Below are positions 1-30,662 of a stretch of 34,451 bases of DNA, piece by piece. Every line of letters starts with the position of its first letter. The first letter of the stretch is position 1. The notes under the pieces were generated by a model. That model was not told the origin of the DNA, did no database searches, and worked only from the letters and a program-made list of their open reading frames with translations. The position numbers and the translations under genes are program-made. The stretch lies in IMG/VR virus record IMGVR_UViG_3300020385_000032, positions 1 through 34,451 of that record; one strand, written 5' to 3'. The DNA comes from a virus.

Positions 1-244
1 CAAATCCAGTCAACTCAAAGCCGAGTCGAGGAGCTGTCATTCTTACCTTAACATCATCATCAATAGATGATGGTTGTCGAAGTCTAACTAAAAACTTTTC
101 CTTTGGTCCATACCCCAAAGGAACACGAAGACTTTCTTTTACAGTATCATCTGCATTGTATCGCTTTACGTCAATTTCATTGAACAGCGTACCAAAGCCA
201 ACCACTAGCTTACGAACTGAATTGTTGTAGAAATGTCCGAACAT
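1..244 (-). CDS. 15: gp15-like proximal tail sheath stabilisation protein (partial, N-terminal 81 residues)
   Basis: The gene starts at 244 and runs off the left edge, so only about 81 residues are visible. The N-terminus MFGHFYNNSVRKLV, followed by FGTLFNEIDVKRYN and a stretch with VPLGYGPKEKF, matches the start of T4 gp15 (MFGYFYNSSFRR, LFSNIQIKR, VPITYASKEHF) residue by residue. In T4, gp15 forms a hexameric ring at the top of the tail that caps and stabilises the sheath and joins the tail to the neck. The start codon overlaps the gp14 stop (TGATG), and a strong Shine-Dalgarno sequence lies at 254-259. Position directly after gp13 and gp14 supports the call. Only the C-terminal part is unseen. 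Confidence 0.9.
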   Translation of the reverse strand, partial: MFGHFYNNSVRKLVVGFGTLFNEIDVKRYNADDTVKESLRVPLGYGPKEKFLVRLRQPSSIDDDVKVRMTAPRLGFELTGF

Positions 245-22887: not shown

Positions 22888-25287
22888 TCAATCTCTCCCA
22901 CTTTGGGGACAGAAACCAGGCTGAACGCACGATCCGTCTGCACATCTTTCCAATCCTTCAGCACATTCCCCATCATCGTCGGGTGGTTCTACTGTACCAC
23001 AATCAACCTCTGAGCAGCTAGATCCATCCCCAAAATAATCACCACCAGCAAGACTACATTCTTCTGATGTCTTTGTTGTGCATACGTCTCCTATGCAACA
23101 TGCGCCAGTTTGTGGGGGATCACCGTCAGGTGGATCCGTTGGATCTTCACATGGGAATTGTTCACATGTGCTATTATCACCGTGATATATTCCACCATTT
23201 AGAGTACAGTTAACTTCCGTTCTGATTGAACAGTTATCTCCAATACAACAAGCTCCAGTTGGATCAATAGGATCTCCTGTACCATCACCGTCAGGTGGAT
23301 CCGTTGAATCATCTGTGTTGCCACTTTCATCCACGGGATCTGGATCTGGCGGCTCCACATACACTTCAACCAATCCACCACCGGGATTATATTCAAAGTT
23401 CTGTGCGGCGGGGGGAGAAACTGCCGATCTACTTAGTTCAATTTGCGATAATTTTATATCATTGATGTTCTGAGTGTCTACTGTTAAGTTTCCGTTTTGG
23501 GTGGTATCATAGTTTAGAATTTTATGTGTGGGTGCAAAAATTACATCTTCACGAGGAGTGACATCAAAGGTGATTATACCTTGTCTTGTAGCACTGACAG
23601 GTATAAAGTTATTGATAAAAACGGCCCCAGATGCAAAGTCTATAGAACCCATGTTTTTATAGATTGATATTCTTCTACCACCAACTAGCTCATAAATCCG
23701 AAGTTTACCATCCATGTCACTGTCAATGGCTCCTCTGAATATAGTTCCGTCTGGTTTCTTGTATGCAAAGTCGCTCGACTGTACTGATGGGATTCCTTGT
23801 ATACCACCAAGAGAGTCATGACTAGTATTCATTAAAGTGTTGTTGAATTCAAGAACGTAGTTTCTTTTATTGTTCACGGAAGGAGCTAAACGTTTTTGTA
23901 ACATGACATCAACGTCAACATAGAGCAAAGAATTTTCAAGGTTACGACACAGTGCTTCCAGTTGGTTGATGTATAGGTGCTTCCCAAACTTACATAATTC
24001 TGTGGTGGCAAACAGTGTAATATACGATATCAACAATGCCTTAAGCTCTAGTGCTGTTTTAGTTGTCAGCGTGGGATCATAAGCAGACTTTGCTTTGAAC
24101 ATAACATATGTGTATTCGGGATCAATTATCTCAGGAAGAATACCAACAATATTCTTTGGCTTCAATATGTTGTTCTTTATGTCTTCCTTTTCTTGATCTG
24201 TCAACACACTCGTTGTTTTTGGTTTTACCGCAATATACACTCTACCATATTCTGGTGGGTATATCTCTTCTCCTCCATAAACAAAGACATCATCAGCGTC
24301 CCCATACTCATTCAACACAAGGGACCTATAATCTTCTTCGGTTACTGCTCTGTTTTGAGTCTGGAAGAACAGAGGGGAGTTGAAACGAATACTGTCTTTC
24401 GTTTCAATCGCGGCTCCTCCTGCCGAAGACGATACCACAGATATTGTGCCATTTGCAATCGAGGCAGTGAATGTTCTGTTTGACGATGTGTCAGATTTCC
24501 CCACACCGTTTGCATCTGATCCTGTCGTGGTGAAGTACTCTATGATTACAACATTACCATCTTCTAACTTCTTACCAAGAACACCATCACCAAACTTGAT
24601 TTCGTAAAGTCCCGTGGATGTTACCTCTAAGAAGAATGAAGTACTCGTTGATTTGAGTGTTGTTATATCAGATACCTTTGTCCACACGTCATTCTTACCG
24701 TCAGAGTCTGTCGTTGACTTCAGAACTCTAACAGTTATGTGATCAGTGTCCACATCAAGTGTGGGAATAACAAACTTAGTTTCAGATGTGCTAGATGAGA
24801 CATAGGATACTGAATTGAACTCACCTTCAAAGATTGAAAACTCACTAGAAACGTGAGGAGCGGTTCCAGAAGTATCAATCGTTATTGGAGCCATGTTGAA
24901 GAATGAATATGGTGTACCGCCAATAGTAGCAGAAAACTTTGTTCTGCCAGGTATGATCTTCGTGGATGTATCTGAAGTTGAAAGGGAAACAGTGACTCGT
25001 GCTTCGGCAGCTTTCTTTGAGTGTGGCGTATATCCGATTTGCTTTGCATGGGACATCACAGATTCTTTCTTGACTGCACTGTCCAAGAACATTTCGTTCG
25101 CTACCATGTTTGTATAGAATGACTGGTAGTGTGTGTTGTATGCTAGAACGTCTAGAAGAACCGATAAACCAGATCCATTAAAATCAAAATCCTTGAACTG
25201 CTCTTGGCCTTCTAGGAAAGTTTGAAAGTTTGATCTAATCGCATTGAAATCTAGATCTGTTATTTGCTTTGTTTTATTAACCGCCAT
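22888..25287 (-). CDS. 6: gp6-like baseplate wedge protein with Cys-rich C-terminal extension
   Basis: A 799-aa protein (T4 gp6 is 660 aa). In T4, gp6 forms the inner ring that ties the six wedges together. The N-terminus (TDLDFNAIRSNFQTFLEGQE, DFNGSGLSVLLDVLAYNTHY, MFLDSAVKKESVMSHAKQIG, YTPHS) is the strongly conserved gp6 opening. Residues about 290-420 carry the baseplate-J-like AVTEEDYRSLVLNEYGDADD and RVYIAVKPK segments. The core ends near residue 640. The last 160 residues are a Pro/Asp-rich linker, two repeats of about 37 residues beginning TGACCIGD with eight Cys each, and a short C-x2-G-x-E-x-C-x3-G-x-C module. This tail is not part of gp6 proper as I know it. The start overlaps the gp25 stop (TAATG). 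Confidence 0.93.
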   Translation of the reverse strand: MAVNKTKQITDLDFNAIRSNFQTFLEGQEQFKDFDFNGSGLSVLLDVLAYNTHYQSFYTNMVANEMFLDSAVKKESVMSHAKQIGYTPHSKKAAEARVTVSLSTSDTSTKIIPGRTKFSATIGGTPYSFFNMAPITIDTSGTAPHVSSEFSIFEGEFNSVSYVSSSTSETKFVIPTLDVDTDHITVRVLKSTTDSDGKNDVWTKVSDITTLKSTSTSFFLEVTSTGLYEIKFGDGVLGKKLEDGNVVIIEYFTTTGSDANGVGKSDTSSNRTFTASIANGTISVVSSSAGGAAIETKDSIRFNSPLFFQTQNRAVTEEDYRSLVLNEYGDADDVFVYGGEEIYPPEYGRVYIAVKPKTTSVLTDQEKEDIKNNILKPKNIVGILPEIIDPEYTYVMFKAKSAYDPTLTTKTALELKALLISYITLFATTELCKFGKHLYINQLEALCRNLENSLLYVDVDVMLQKRLAPSVNNKRNYVLEFNNTLMNTSHDSLGGIQGIPSVQSSDFAYKKPDGTIFRGAIDSDMDGKLRIYELVGGRRISIYKNMGSIDFASGAVFINNFIPVSATRQGIITFDVTPREDVIFAPTHKILNYDTTQNGNLTVDTQNINDIKLSQIELSRSAVSPPAAQNFEYNPGGGLVEVYVEPPDPDPVDESGNTDDSTDPPDGDGTGDPIDPTGACCIGDNCSIRTEVNCTLNGGIYHGDNSTCEQFPCEDPTDPPDGDPPQTGACCIGDVCTTKTSEECSLAGGDYFGDGSSCSEVDCGTVEPPDDDGECAEGLERCADGSCVQPGFCPQSGRD
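22999..23259 (-). repeat. Two cysteine-rich protein repeats encoded at the 3' end of gp6
   Basis: Residues 677-713 and 727-763 of gp6 follow the pattern TGACCIGD-x-C-x3-T-x3-C-x3-GG-x-Y-x-GD-x-S-x-C-x4-C. In the DNA, an identical stretch of about 22 bases (beginning TCACCGTCAGG on the plus strand, at about 23120 and 23285) encodes the Pro/Asp linker before each repeat. This suggests a duplication. Confidence 0.85.
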
Positions 25288-25696: not shown

Positions 25697-27247
25697 TTAC
25701 TGTTCTAAAATTCGTACTGCATCTCGGACAGTAAATATATTAACAAAGATTGATGCCTCCTCAATGAGAGAACGTTCTGACCGTGGACTATTGAGTCCCA
25801 TGTCTACCCAGTTAGCGTAATTCTTTAGATCTGTTATGCTGAAGTTGTCGGCGAGGAACTGGGCTAGCCCTCCCGGGGTCAGGTTATTATTTTCTCTCAG
25901 GACAGCTCTCCACCTGCTAACAAAAGATCTTGCTCTAGATAAGTTTGCCGGCACTTCAGGGTATGGAGGAGCGAGGAGTTCAGCCACCCTCCTCGCATTT
26001 TCTTCAGCCACCCTCCTCGAATTTTCGTATTCATCTATAACTGTATCAACATCAGGAGCCGAGGGTTCAGTATCACCACCATCACTATCATCACCAACTG
26101 CTCCCACTGCTACTACTTCTTCTTCTTCCTCGGAGAAGAAGTCTTCTACATTAGATCCAAACTCATTTATGTTTGTCGCAAGATCGGCAGCAGCTTGTTC
26201 TGCTTGTGCCACTAACTGCTCTCCCTGAGACTGTAGATCCTCAAACGATTTCTCTAACTTGTTGACTGCATCTTTACCTTTATCCACGACACTATCGATC
26301 AACTGTTCTGCCTGTTGTTGTACTGATTCTACTATACCCTCGACACTCGCCTTGATATCATCGACAAGCTCTTCTGGATCTGGAATCAGTGCAGCAATTT
26401 GCTCTAACGATGGGGGAGATGGCAGTTGCAAGTCGGGAATGAGTCCTTCGATTCCAGGTCCAGCAATAAGATCTTTAAATACTTTCCCTGCAAGGCAAGG
26501 ATCAGTCAACACCCCACTGAGTGCAGTGTTCGCTAAACCATATTGATCAAGGAATGCCAACGCTCCAGAAAGGAACGCATCTTCAGAGTTCGCTATGTTG
26601 AGGAATGACTGTTCTATTCCCTGAATTGTTGTGGTTATTCTTATTACTTCATCGAAGAATTGGTTGTCGCCTGGATCAAAATCACCCGCACCAAATTGAC
26701 CTGCAAATTGTACAATACCATCTAATACATTCTGTGATTCTTGTATTGCATTAACTCCGAACTCTTGCTTTAAACTGTTAAAGCCATGAGAGAAGTTGTC
26801 TTTAAGAATGTCTTCTGGATTTGTGGAGAGAGTGGCAAGAGCAGAATTATATGCACTACCAATTCCTAAAATCCTACCAAGATCTGGTTGTTCATCCTGA
26901 AACCCACTTACCACACCACTGATTCGATTTGTTCTTTGTTCAAATTCGACGATAGAACCTTGAAAATCTTGTACCACATTTTGTAGATTACTGGCCCACG
27001 GTGCTTGTACAAAACCACCAGCCGTACCATCTGGATTCTCTGTAAAACTACCAATACCTTGTAATCCACTCACCGCCTCACTTATCGTAGACTTCACTCC
27101 ACCAGCTAAATCTGCAATTGGGTTACTCAGAGCATCCCCACGCAAAAAGGACTGGATGAAGTCGATCTGCTTGGGTTCTAGGACGCCTTGTAGGATAGCG
27201 CAGTTGTTTAGGGGAAAGTCACCGTTTCCAATTTGACTTACTACCAT
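25697..27247 (-). CDS. Unknown structural-type protein with central coiled coil and acidic linker
   Basis: I do not recognise this 516-aa protein. Residues 1-250 are alpha-rich with a compact start (NCAILQGVLEPKQIDFIQSF). Residues about 280-370 form a long amphipathic helical stretch (ELVDDIKASVEGIVESVQQQ, AEQLIDSV, KLEKSFEDLQSQGEQL) that is probably a coiled coil. An acidic low-complexity linker follows, with a run of five Glu and then Asp/Gly/Ser (about 373-400). A tandem repeat of eight residues (NSRRVAEE, NARRVAEL) lies at about 409-424, and a folded C-terminal domain at about 430-516. It lies between the PAAR tip and gp25, directly adjacent to both, so it probably belongs to the central hub or its assembly. 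It has no signal peptide or membrane segment. Confidence 0.65.
   Translation of the reverse strand: MVVSQIGNGDFPLNNCAILQGVLEPKQIDFIQSFLRGDALSNPIADLAGGVKSTISEAVSGLQGIGSFTENPDGTAGGFVQAPWASNLQNVVQDFQGSIVEFEQRTNRISGVVSGFQDEQPDLGRILGIGSAYNSALATLSTNPEDILKDNFSHGFNSLKQEFGVNAIQESQNVLDGIVQFAGQFGAGDFDPGDNQFFDEVIRITTTIQGIEQSFLNIANSEDAFLSGALAFLDQYGLANTALSGVLTDPCLAGKVFKDLIAGPGIEGLIPDLQLPSPPSLEQIAALIPDPEELVDDIKASVEGIVESVQQQAEQLIDSVVDKGKDAVNKLEKSFEDLQSQGEQLVAQAEQAAADLATNINEFGSNVEDFFSEEEEEVVAVGAVGDDSDGGDTEPSAPDVDTVIDEYENSRRVAEENARRVAELLAPPYPEVPANLSRARSFVSRWRAVLRENNNLTPGGLAQFLADNFSITDLKNYANWVDMGLNSPRSERSLIEEASIFVNIFTVRDAVRILEQ
25981..26027 (-). repeat. Tandem 24-base repeat inside the 516-aa gene
   Basis: Two adjacent near-identical 24-base units (plus strand 25981-26004 and 26005-26027, beginning CAGCCACCCTCCTCG) encode the eight-residue repeat around RRVAE. 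One base differs in the shared core. Confidence 0.85.
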
Positions 27248-27526
27248 TTACACACCTCCTACATTTGGGGATCCAGTTATAGCCTTATGACCACACGAAC
27301 ATGCATTACCTACTAGAAGAATGGGTTTACCTTCGGCTGTAATAGTGGAAGAAAATTCTTGATTGAAAACACCGATCACAATAGAGTTTCCGTGTCTGTG
27401 TGGTGCCGTAGAAGAACCTTGTACAGCGATAGGCATCCCATTGACAAGAACAGAACTTCCTCCCGGCGACATTGAAATGATTGCTGGAGCGTTAGTGAGA
27501 TCATTTATTCTTAATAGACCCTTCAT
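27248..27526 (-). CDS. PAAR-domain spike tip protein
   Basis: A 92-aa protein with the PAAR pattern: a Gly-rich strand series (PGGSSVLVNGMPIAVQG), an APHRHG segment (His43, His45), then GKPILLVGNACSCGHKAITG (Cys76, Cys78, His80). PAAR proteins cap the beta-helical spike of contractile tails and type VI secretion systems, forming a metal-stabilised cone that first touches the target membrane; T4 gp5.4 is an example. The His/Cys set is a plausible metal site. The start overlaps the stop of the 720-aa gene (TAATG) and the stop is adjacent to the next start. With gp5 just upstream, it should sit at the very tip of the spike. Confidence 0.9.
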   Translation of the reverse strand: MKGLLRINDLTNAPAIISMSPGGSSVLVNGMPIAVQGSSTAPHRHGNSIVIGVFNQEFSSTITAEGKPILLVGNACSCGHKAITGSPNVGGV

Positions 27527-29688
27527 TAATAACCTCCTCCGCTACTACTACTACTACTTCCGCTACTACTACTTCTCACTGGTGTTCTTGTGGCTGATGG
27601 AGTTTCACCGAAAGAACCACCATCAATAACATTGTCATCAATGTTCGTGATCTTTACAAACGAACTTGACTTGTCTGGTAGTTGACCAAATACGGTTTTA
27701 GTTACTTCATAGAGTTCACCGTTATAGACAACGGTTGTTCCTTTTCTATATGTAATCAACTTGTTACTCGAATCTCTGACAGAGAACATCCCACCAGAGC
27801 TGGAAACAGCCGCACCGTTCCTAGTAATATTTACATACGGAACATAAGACTGACACCAGTAGTTCTTATTCGCAGTTGCTTTCCATGCAGAACAGTAAGC
27901 ATTATTCTGATTGAACAGTTTGCAATTACCACACTTCTGTCCATCTGGAACTGCTTGGTTTATAGAGTTCTGGTATGCAGTGGGGAAGTTGCCAGGAATT
28001 CTCTTTCCGTTTTCGTAGGTATTACGTTGACTGTTGTTTGAATTGTCGTTTTCTAATCTTCTTTCTTCTGGAGGTTCGCCTATGGTCTCGGTTTCAAGAT
28101 CACTTAATGGATCGTACTCAAAACTGAAGTTTGGATCTATTGGTACTGGAGTGCCTTGATCTCCCATATATGGTTCTCGATAAGTTTCGTCGTAATACCG
28201 AAGCAATAAATCTCGGTGATAATAATGATCATACAAATCTTCTGTACGAGCATACCAATATGCAAAGTGACTTGGATAGTCTCCCCAATACTCAATTTCA
28301 AGTGCATTCAGTTGATATGCAAGCTCGTCTCCAGGCAGATCCGAGTCAAAGGGATCCGCACCCGCATATTCTGTATTATTCAATAAATATGTGTTGTGAA
28401 TTATAGGTACAACGGGCTTCACTTCACCATGCTCTTGAATTATGTCTTCACATGTTTTTTTAGCTCTCTGTACTCTTTCTCCATTACGTATTCTACTAAG
28501 CGCAATAGGATCGTTATATTCAAAATACGCATACTGATATAATGTAGGACTTAAAAAATCAAGAACATCGAAGAGTGTTTTTCCTTGGTATTTTATATTA
28601 GAGGCAAATACCTGCCTCCGACTAAACTTAGCAACGTCGGTACTAAATCTGGGATTTCTACCATCTCCGAATCTCCATAGTCCAAATTTTGCATTTGGCA
28701 TAAATTCTCTAAGAATGTTTACTCTTCTTATCACACCTTCCACGAACGCTTTTAAATCTGACTGACTTGTATTCAGTAGGTTACCAAAATTTACTGGAGA
28801 TTCCCAATCAAGAAGAATCCACCCTGTGGTATTTTCATTAAGATATGTGTTTCTAACTGCGATAGGATCTTCACCAAATCTTTCTATCCATGTTTGAATA
28901 GCGTACTCGTAGGCGCAATCGCGATCGCAACCACTTTCCACGTAGGCGGCATAGATCGGGTCATTGTTACTAAAGAAAGATTCCTTGCTAAGATGATCCC
29001 TTACCCATTCTCTCCACTCCTCATCTGTTTCAGCTTTCCAAAACTCCATTCCTTTTCCCTCACGCTCTTCTGCCGTATCACCATAACAATAATTAATACC
29101 TTCATTGATTTTGCATTCATCCCGCCACTCTTGACGTTGTTGCATATACCACATTTCTTCTTTGGATCCAGTTTGAATAAGAGAAGGCATCATAGGAAAA
29201 CGTATCTTTCCACCAGCAATGGTTACGGATGGTACGTATCCCTCTGGATTGATTACTGTACCATCATCATCTAATTCGGGTACAGGAATTAGCTGCGGAC
29301 AGTCACCGTGGAATTGTGTTTCTCCCATAACCAAACCATTTGGCATATAATACCGACCGCCGTCAATAACGTGTACATGAAATCCCTTTGATTTCTCGCC
29401 GTTTCGAATCATATCAGGGTATGGACTAGCTGCGACAGCAGCGCGAGAAGTAGTATATAATGGACAATATCCACCAACTGAAAATGGACCATTTTCTCCC
29501 CGATTATTTCCAGCAGAACCGTCAAGTCCTGCTCTACTATTAGAACCACCAGATCGTTGCTCTGGTGTACTTCGGACTGTAGGGGAAACATAGGTCTGTT
29601 GGCGCGTTACGGGAGGAGTAGACGCCGGCGTACTCCTTTGTTGACTTGATCTATTATTGTTATTATTATTCCCTGTATGGTACGACAT
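27526..29688 (-). CDS. Tail-tip protein with glycosidase-like (hyaluronidase-type TIM-barrel) region and HiPIP-like Cys motif
   Basis: A 720-aa protein. Residues 1-70 are low complexity (six Asn, then Ser/Thr/Pro/Gln). Residues about 270-490 look like part of a TIM-barrel glycosidase: TTGWILLDWES (D294, E296), LREFMPNAKFGLWRFGD, VLDFLSPTLYQYAY, VKPVVPIIHNTYLL and YPSHFAYWYAR. This resembles the strand order of GH56 hyaluronidases, whose catalytic motif is D-x-E. Residues 586-612 (C-x2-C-x9-C-x12-C, within KCGNCKLF, YCSAW and WCQSYVP) resemble high-potential iron-sulfur proteins. A small beta domain (625-690) and a Ser/Gly tail follow. Lying between gp5 and PAAR, it may supply the cell-wall-degrading activity that gp5 lacks. 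Function is inferred. Confidence 0.6.
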   Translation of the reverse strand: MSYHTGNNNNNNRSSQQRSTPASTPPVTRQQTYVSPTVRSTPEQRSGGSNSRAGLDGSAGNNRGENGPFSVGGYCPLYTTSRAAVAASPYPDMIRNGEKSKGFHVHVIDGGRYYMPNGLVMGETQFHGDCPQLIPVPELDDDGTVINPEGYVPSVTIAGGKIRFPMMPSLIQTGSKEEMWYMQQRQEWRDECKINEGINYCYGDTAEEREGKGMEFWKAETDEEWREWVRDHLSKESFFSNNDPIYAAYVESGCDRDCAYEYAIQTWIERFGEDPIAVRNTYLNENTTGWILLDWESPVNFGNLLNTSQSDLKAFVEGVIRRVNILREFMPNAKFGLWRFGDGRNPRFSTDVAKFSRRQVFASNIKYQGKTLFDVLDFLSPTLYQYAYFEYNDPIALSRIRNGERVQRAKKTCEDIIQEHGEVKPVVPIIHNTYLLNNTEYAGADPFDSDLPGDELAYQLNALEIEYWGDYPSHFAYWYARTEDLYDHYYHRDLLLRYYDETYREPYMGDQGTPVPIDPNFSFEYDPLSDLETETIGEPPEERRLENDNSNNSQRNTYENGKRIPGNFPTAYQNSINQAVPDGQKCGNCKLFNQNNAYCSAWKATANKNYWCQSYVPYVNITRNGAAVSSSGGMFSVRDSSNKLITYRKGTTVVYNGELYEVTKTVFGQLPDKSSSFVKITNIDDNVIDGGSFGETPSATRTPVRSSSSGSSSSSSGGGY
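27541..27574 (-). repeat. Trinucleotide repeat coding the Ser-rich C-terminus of the 720-aa protein
   Basis: Plus strand shows repeated CTA/ACT triplets with few interruptions. On the coding strand these are AGT-type serine codons in a tail of Ser runs broken by Gly. Confidence 0.85.
29651..29670 (-). repeat. Trinucleotide repeat coding the Asn run at the N-terminus of the 720-aa protein
   Basis: Plus strand shows ATT/GTT triplets in a row. On the coding strand they are AAT/AAC codons giving six consecutive Asn (residues 7-12). Confidence 0.85.
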
Positions 29689-29690
29689 GT

Positions 29691-30662
29691 TTATCCTGGC
29701 GGGTTAAGTTCCACCATACCCCCTTGTAATTTAATCTTTGCGCCTCCCCCAACGAAATTAGCAACACCGCTTCCACCGATCTGAGCATCTGTACCTGCGA
29801 CTGCATTAATATTTTCTGTTGCATTCACATTAAAGTTCTTACAGTCTACTTGAAAATCGTCTGACAACTTGAAATGTGCTTTCCCGCCTTCGAAAATATA
29901 ATTCGCAGCTTTGAATACTGCATTACCATCAGTGGTGATGTTTAGATTACCTTGGACGTACATTTTCTCGTCACCCATTGTTACTTTATAGCCACCACCT
30001 GTTGACTTTATGACCATCTTTCCATCTGGATGAAACTCAACAAACGAACCAGAGTTGTGGTATATGTGTATTCTTTCATTGTCTCTTGTATCGTCAATTT
30101 CGATCAAGTGACCAGTGACAGATTCATATACCTTGTTAAAAGGATAAACAGGATTACCATCCCCTGCGGTTGGTTCGTTCCATGTTTCATCGTCCCCTGT
30201 TGGGACTTCCTCTGCTGGTTTCTTATTGAAGGATGGTGTTCCTTCTTCGGGAGGACCGTATGCTAAAATATTCGTGTCTGGTTTTCCAAGATACGTGTCC
30301 CGTGGGAAGTTATCATACGGATCATTCAAACCTTCTTCTTTGATGTTCTCTTGTGCGTTCACTCCAGGCACAGTTCCCATGATCATGGCTTGCTGTGGCA
30401 TAGGTTCCTTACCATCCAAGAAGAAACCAAACACCTGAGTGCCAGGAAGGAAACCTGGCACTGTGGTTCCAACCCCAGAACTGCTCGCGCTGGTTACGGG
30501 AAATATTGGATGCGCCCAAGGGAGTGATGACGTTGGAATATCCTCTTGGTTTGCACTATGATATCCGTGGATGCGAACTCTTGCTCGCCCCAACTTCTCT
30601 GGATCTTGGACATCCTCGACGACACCAAGCCACCAAACGAATTCTCCATTCAGATTAATCAT
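29691..30662 (-). CDS. 5: gp5-like baseplate hub / spike protein without lysozyme domain
   Basis: A 323-aa protein (T4 gp5 is 575 aa). Residues 1-100 are the OB-fold that sits on the gp27 hub: FVWWLGVVEDVQDPEKLGRA, RVRIHGYH, SLPWAHPIFP, FLPGTQVFGFFLDG, QQAMIMGTVPG. A Pro/Asp/Glu-rich linker (about 100-175) follows. Residues about 175-323 are the spike: TGHLIEIDDTRDNERIHIYH, SGSFVEFHPDGKMVIKS, then short beta repeats typical of the gp5 C-terminal beta-helix. The lysozyme domain that T4 gp5 carries between these parts is absent; only the linker is there. As trimer it should form the needle under the PAAR tip. The start overlaps the end of the 51-aa gene, with only a weak ribosome binding site, so coupling is likely. 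Confidence 0.88.
   Translation of the reverse strand: MINLNGEFVWWLGVVEDVQDPEKLGRARVRIHGYHSANQEDIPTSSLPWAHPIFPVTSASSSGVGTTVPGFLPGTQVFGFFLDGKEPMPQQAMIMGTVPGVNAQENIKEEGLNDPYDNFPRDTYLGKPDTNILAYGPPEEGTPSFNKKPAEEVPTGDDETWNEPTAGDGNPVYPFNKVYESVTGHLIEIDDTRDNERIHIYHNSGSFVEFHPDGKMVIKSTGGGYKVTMGDEKMYVQGNLNITTDGNAVFKAANYIFEGGKAHFKLSDDFQVDCKNFNVNATENINAVAGTDAQIGGSGVANFVGGGAKIKLQGGMVELNPPG

Follow-up and report, generated by a model that had tools for sequence, protein, structure and literature searches.

A HiPIP-like four-cysteine module in a putative tail-tip protein of a T4-type myovirus and its occurrence on other phage proteins

High-potential iron-sulfur proteins (HiPIPs) are electron carriers, chiefly of purple photosynthetic bacteria. 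What would a module resembling them do on the tail of a phage? The question is raised by the IMG/VR virus record IMGVR_UViG_3300020385_000032, the whole of which, 34,451 bases, was analyzed here (the window). According to Pfam and PHROGs, its tail genes are those of a T4-type myovirus, with gp6 and gp25 wedge proteins, a gp5-OB spike protein, a PAAR protein and a tube cap, and the best gp6 matches include Pelagibacter, Methylophilales and Synechococcus phages. An open reading frame with an ATG start on the minus strand (27526..29688) encodes the 720-aa protein that carries the module. It is located between the genes for the gp5-OB spike protein (29691..30662, minus strand; Pfam Gp5_OB E 1e-23, phrog_430) and the PAAR tip protein (27248..27526, minus strand; Pfam PAAR_motif E 3e-9, phrog_281), and the order is the same in the related sequence L004. 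Because these two genes flank it, we infer from gene order that the 720-aa protein belongs to the tail tip.

Two further proteins of this region deserve mention. A 516-aa protein with a coiled coil is encoded between the PAAR and gp25 genes (25697-27247, minus strand) and displays weak likeness to the tape-measure families phrog_1272 and phrog_4200. The gp6-like wedge protein (22888-25287, minus strand) has a Cys-rich C-terminal extension of ~190 residues, in which two copies of the repeat TGACCIGDxCxxxTxxxCxxxGGxYxGDxxxC and a CAEGLERCADGSCVQPGFC tail stand after Pro/Asp-rich linkers.

The initial annotation had described a C-x2-C-x9-C-x12-C motif at residues 586-612 of the 720-aa protein, flanked by KCGNCKLF, YCSAW and WCQSYVP, and exactly this is present in the translation of the open reading frame; the stretch to which it was assigned (27835-27951) corresponds to residues 580-618. 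The four proposed cluster ligands, all on the minus strand, are Cys586 (27931..27933), Cys589 (27922..27924), Cys599 (27892..27894) and Cys612 (27853..27855), and each is kept in all relatives. Around the last Cys, Trp611 and Tyr615 follow the rule for HiPIPs, namely a Trp at Cys4-1 and an aromatic residue at Cys4+2/+3. A loose C-x2-C...C...[WFY]C pattern matched four times in the six frames of the window, with one match spanning a stop codon, and among these the arrangement CGNC...C-x2-W...WC-x2-Y was found in the 720-aa protein alone. The motif in this protein is more than a chance occurrence.

Comparison of the window protein alone with the Pfam family HIPIP (PF01355) yielded 15.3-18.9 bits (E 0.0019-0.025), below the gathering score of 22 bits, which is a curation threshold and not a biological trait; the module is therefore called HiPIP-like here. 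PioC was the PDB match of the window sequence alone (E 0.013). When a profile of real HiPIPs was used, the window module ranked top among the 723 stretches of the six frames (E 0.0068), and none of 2,000 shuffles with the Cys residues fixed reached its score, indicating that the HiPIP likeness is carried by the non-Cys residues. The same control applied to other modules taken alone gave 15 of 2,000 for the prohead-protease module and 28 of 2,000 for the pelagiphage module. The weak single-sequence scores might suit a metal-free protein, in which the cysteines form disulfides after release or serve for packing only, and oxidation of the protein is possible outside the cell. However, virions form in the reducing cytoplasm, the shuffles just described stand against such a reading, and HiPIPs and HiPIP-like chains come first in the profile search as well as in the fold search, so that a metal-free module appears very improbable.

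A profile built from 21 phage modules was compared with 177,635 PDB sequences. The first 13 matches were HiPIPs (E 1.1e-4 to 0.41), followed by MasB, a HiPIP-like Fe-S subunit, and then by another HiPIP, while zinc-ribbon ribosomal proteins appeared at E > 1 only. In hhalign, the phage profile matched seven real HiPIPs (from plasmids) with E 1.6e-7, and the tail family alone matched real HiPIPs with E 2.7e-6. Aromatic residues occupied C2+3, C3+3 and C4+3 in 21 of 21 modules, and C4-1 was Trp, Tyr or aliphatic (Tyr or Val/Ile in the prohead-protease and pelagiphage modules). The Cys spacing is 2-9-12 in the window and 2-7..15-12/13 among the 21 modules. The sequence-profile similarity that would place the module with the HiPIPs is significant.

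Template-free AF2 prediction of the module from phage sequences only produced a best model of pLDDT 63 and four others of 41-44. A Foldseek search of the PDB returned seven matches, six of them HiPIP chains and the other the HiPIP-like subunit 2y8n_B. VIA-align gave Z 5.0 to both 1isu and 1js2, with an rmsd of 2.4 over 52 residues for 1isu. Structure prediction, which had been proposed as a check, thus returned the HiPIP as the best-matching fold of the module model (Z at most 5), and since that model is of middling confidence we regard a HiPIP fold of the module as likely. The HiPIP reading of the initial annotation is upheld by the profiles, the aromatic pattern and, at middling confidence, the predicted fold, and it falls short at the Pfam PF01355 cut-off (18.9 vs 22 bits).

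Some fold matches of the module in BFVD bear zinc-ribbon names, and four-Cys zinc sites are frequent in phage proteins. The cysteines might accordingly hold a single Zn (or Fe) in a zinc-finger-like structural site, the HiPIP likeness then reflecting a common loop arrangement; MASS-delta, which has a C-x2-C-xn-C-xn-C motif, binds one Fe (PMC12358834, PMC12590467). However, the module has a single C-x2-C pair instead of the two of zinc ribbons and rubredoxins, the zinc-ribbon proteins ranked below all HiPIPs in the 21-module search, and in the Cys-fixed shuffles it was the non-Cys residues that matched HiPIPs. We consider a single-metal site unlikely.

The architecture of the 720-aa protein was deduced by comparison with four relatives (L002, L003, L004 and L010). 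Its constant, low-complexity N-terminus (residues 1-31, MSYHTGNNNNNNRSSQQRSTPASTPPV; 29596..29688, minus strand) is common to all of them, L002 being cut there by the contig end, and the last ~165 residues are shared by the four at 85-90% identity. The middle (residues 67-482; 28243..29490, minus strand) is exchangeable. Among these relatives, the window's version is found in L002 only, and the second type in L003 and L004 and the third in L010 had no significant similarity to it. The L010 middle is Cys-rich and helical-looking, and unrelated middles between constant ends resemble an exchangeable cassette. The constant C-terminal unit starts at (N)TYENGxRIPGNFP, which is also the start of the HiPIP-like module. 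The module (residues 561-620, RIPGNFPTAYQ...VPDGQKCGNC...YCSAW...YWCQSYVPY; 27829..28008, minus strand) was recognized by Pfam (below threshold), profiles, hhalign and AF2 with fold search. Behind it lies a constant domain (residues 621-694; 27607..27828, minus strand) with sub-threshold likeness to EFP_N (KOW-like) and CBM_5_12. The extreme C-terminus (27526-27580, minus strand) reads SSSSSSGGGY, and tail-region proteins of L136, L137 and L160 have similar Ser/Gly-rich tails with a last Tyr (SGGGYGY, SSGRGGY).

The ~400-aa middle of the window protein occurs elsewhere (L135-L139) as a homologous extension at the C-terminus of the tail sheath stabilizer (phrog_227), without the module. These stabilizers belong to the opposite end of the tail, and the middle moves between phage proteins. 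No Pfam, PHROG or NCBIfam match was obtained for the middle, and the tail proteins had no match in NCBIfam. A full-length AF2 model of the 720-aa protein (9 sequences) reached pLDDT 36, and its fold matches were TIM-barrel glycoside hydrolases with E 0.017 and worse, a weak hint from modelling that the middle may be such an enzyme. In a tblastn search of phage records, the whole protein had no homologue, and only one prohead protease was hit, via the module. The match of the window protein to the PHROG head protease family phrog_80 (E 0.087) is likewise explained by the module shared with prohead proteases.

The module was recovered from DNA-pattern scans of viral contigs and from a homologue scan. 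In BLAST searches of few sequences, the window module matched L165 (46%, E 2e-14) and L160 (40%, E 4e-12), and these matches span the module only, as is the case for a shuffled domain. It forms an N-terminal extension of prohead proteases, with Pontimonas phage phiPsal1 as a cultured carrier, and it stands at the C-termini of portal proteins (phrog_145) and nucleotidyl/cytidyltransferases (phrog_395) in L169, L201, L212, L175 and many viral contigs. In another phage group it is part of MSYH-starting proteins encoded beside gp6-/gp25-like genes. Stand-alone proteins of 60-80 aa are numerous, with 150 pelagiphage-type relatives alone, including those of the cultured phages HTVC111P, HTVC202P and HTVC026P. 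Judged by sequence, the module is a domain shuffled among phage proteins of the head, of the tail and of stand-alone type. The initial annotation had assigned it to the puncturing device of the phage; it is not specific to such a device, as it also occurs on portal, prohead protease, nucleotidyltransferase, baseplate-region and stand-alone proteins.

In pelagipodophages (L019, L046, L047 and ~150 viral contigs), the genes upstream of the terminase large subunit include, a few positions away, one for a conserved HiPIP-like protein of 70 aa, which is annotated merely as hypothetical. A scan of bacterial and archaeal genomes with one pattern revealed only two small pelagiphage-type copies, both in MAG contigs, and one of them (L140) has terminase and portal genes as neighbours; no cellular source of the module was found with this one pattern. 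A 69-aa frame of Synechococcus phage S-SRM01 scored 22.6 bits with Pfam HIPIP, above the cut-off, and this copy was caught by Pfam but missed by the phage-module profiles A3 and A4.

All four Cys were retained in every homologue found, which was the conservation expected from the initial annotation, although search patterns containing CGNC bias the sample toward intact motifs and the collections consist of metagenomic fragments. This bias is softened by the pelagiphage-type set, which was scanned with several patterns, some of them without Cys, and which also keeps the four Cys. In these relatives the Gly and Asn of CGNC vary (CGDC, CGSC, CANC), while the four Cys are constant. Between relatives, the module core displayed 0-6 replacements vs 2-10 synonymous changes, and its pN/pS was 0.00-0.18 vs 0.23-0.39 behind the module. 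The core is under purifying selection.

We infer cluster binding, insertion by the host, a docking role and location in the virion from these comparisons. With a probability of about 60%, the window protein carries a HiPIP-type [4Fe-4S] module whose cluster is mainly a folding nucleus or docking knob that fixes the constant C-terminus. Cys586, Cys589, Cys599 and Cys612 would ligate the predicted cluster, which the host Fe-S machinery would insert while the protein is still cytoplasmic. The conserved aromatic residues would wall off the cluster, which, thanks to this shield, should persist in oxygenated seawater. With the cluster as its nucleus, a short chain poor in strands would become a compact knob, and the knob would dock the protein in the manner of the HiPIP-like [4Fe-4S] subunits of glycyl radical enzymes. 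Together with the beta-domain behind it, it would form the constant anchor of a tail-spike-region protein whose middle is swapped between phages.

HiPIPs proper carry electrons at high potentials, and the modules retain the shield of aromatic residues about the last Cys. The [4Fe-4S] cluster might for these reasons have a redox function, as a sensor whose state changes when the tail meets the periplasm or membrane and which helps to trigger or time entry. Portal, prohead protease, nucleotidyltransferase and small free carriers, however, have no evident redox step in common, the window encodes no redox partner adjacent to the gene, and in enzymes the close relatives of HiPIP-like type have a structural role (PMC12358834, PMC12590467). 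Carriers as different as portal proteins, proteases, transferases and tail proteins are more readily reconciled with a general role in docking or folding than with a single redox reaction, and a sensor is in our judgement rather unlikely.

Another possibility is that the cluster is not a structural part but a load of iron or a lure for the iron uptake of the host, as in the 'Ferrojan horse' idea; His-x-His sites in tail fibres have been put forward as iron carriers of marine phages (PMC11705849). However, aromatic residues enclose a HiPIP-type cluster, which would not be accessible to a receptor, and the module is also found on head-region and on small proteins of non-virion type. We see hardly any chance for such a role. 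The structural [4Fe-4S] knob is favoured because the module spans varied proteins and because the glycyl radical enzymes offer a precedent.

More tentatively, and with clearly poorer odds than even, a mobile HiPIP-like [4Fe-4S] module, borne by portal proteins, prohead proteases, proteins of the baseplate and tail-spike regions and small free ones, may be a common docking or switch element in many phages including marine ones, so that their assembly or entry would require host Fe-S biogenesis and virions would export cluster iron. Should the HiPIP fold be a shuffled structural module of phage heads and tails, the host Fe-S machinery would be required for assembling virions. The cell would then lose iron in a buried, oxygen-tolerant form, and marine phage particles would have a second testable iron carrier beside the His-x-His sites of their fibres.

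The gene occupies the position of the T4 gp5-type tail lysozyme (phrog_430), between the OB spike protein and PAAR. In the Methylophilales phage Melnitz-3, the same slot holds an annotated tail lysozyme with an endolysin-like end. The 720-aa protein had no PHROG match to tail lysozymes, and that its middle has enzyme activity is conjecture.

Lambda gpL and the RcGTA hub protein have [4Fe-4S] domains in siphophage-type tail tips (PMC11101478, PMC7296036). They share with the window protein a four-Cys [4Fe-4S] site on a tail protein, the cluster of the window being predicted, but they are baseplate hub proteins of a different build. The Cys spacing of gpL and the RcGTA hub also differs from that of the window module. 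The initial annotation had drawn the analogy to gpL; since the window protein had no match to the gpL-type family in Pfam or PHROGs up to E 1, this stands as a functional parallel at best.

HiPIP-like phage proteins were previously known as automatic database names (BFVD). One example is A0A879R316 of Synechococcus phage S-SRM01, auto-named in UniProt 'High potential iron-sulfur proteins family profile domain-containing', which is also a fold match of the module. The auto-named phage proteins are stand-alone or given without context, and no fusion to a tail-spike-region protein with an exchangeable middle is described among them. No report of HiPIP modules in connection with phage, prohead protease, portal or cyanophage emerged from a search of the open-access literature. 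Neither the tail-spike-region protein whose middle is exchangeable nor the distribution of the module across head, tail and free proteins seems to have been reported before.

Among HiPIPs (PF01355), the closest spacing is that of PioC from Rhodopseudomonas palustris (6xyv), with Cys22/25/34/47, i.e. 2-8-12 (PMC7462912), and C-x2-C-xn-C-x12-C is common to both. The GQxCxNC start, the aromatic residue at C3+3, Trp at C4-1 and the aromatic residue at C4+3 are further features in common, and a Trp before and an aromatic residue two or three positions after the last Cys form the HiPIP pattern (PMC7462912). HiPIPs obtain their cluster in the cytoplasm and, in the case of HiPIPs proper, are high-potential electron carriers; PioC, the smallest, has no clear secondary structure, and its folding is seemingly driven by the cluster (PMC7462912). 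HiPIPs proper are small (50-100 aa) and exported, whereas the window module of ~60 residues is inside a 720-aa phage protein, which is therefore not assigned to HiPIPs proper.

The glycyl-radical-enzyme subunits HPAD gamma (2y8n_B), MASS beta (9o8u_B) and BSS gamma are matched by the predicted fold of the module. In contrast to the module, these HiPIP-like chains are separate subunits of anaerobic enzymes, and the spacing of MASS beta differs (Cys32/35/51/86). The cluster of the HiPIP-like [4Fe-4S] subunits of MASS, BSS and HPAD lies > 30 A from the active site, and the subunits cover a hydrophobic patch and confer solubility or control flexibility (PMC12358834, PMC12590467). If the phage module works in the proposed manner, structural, not redox, HiPIP-like clusters would extend beyond the glycyl radical enzymes.
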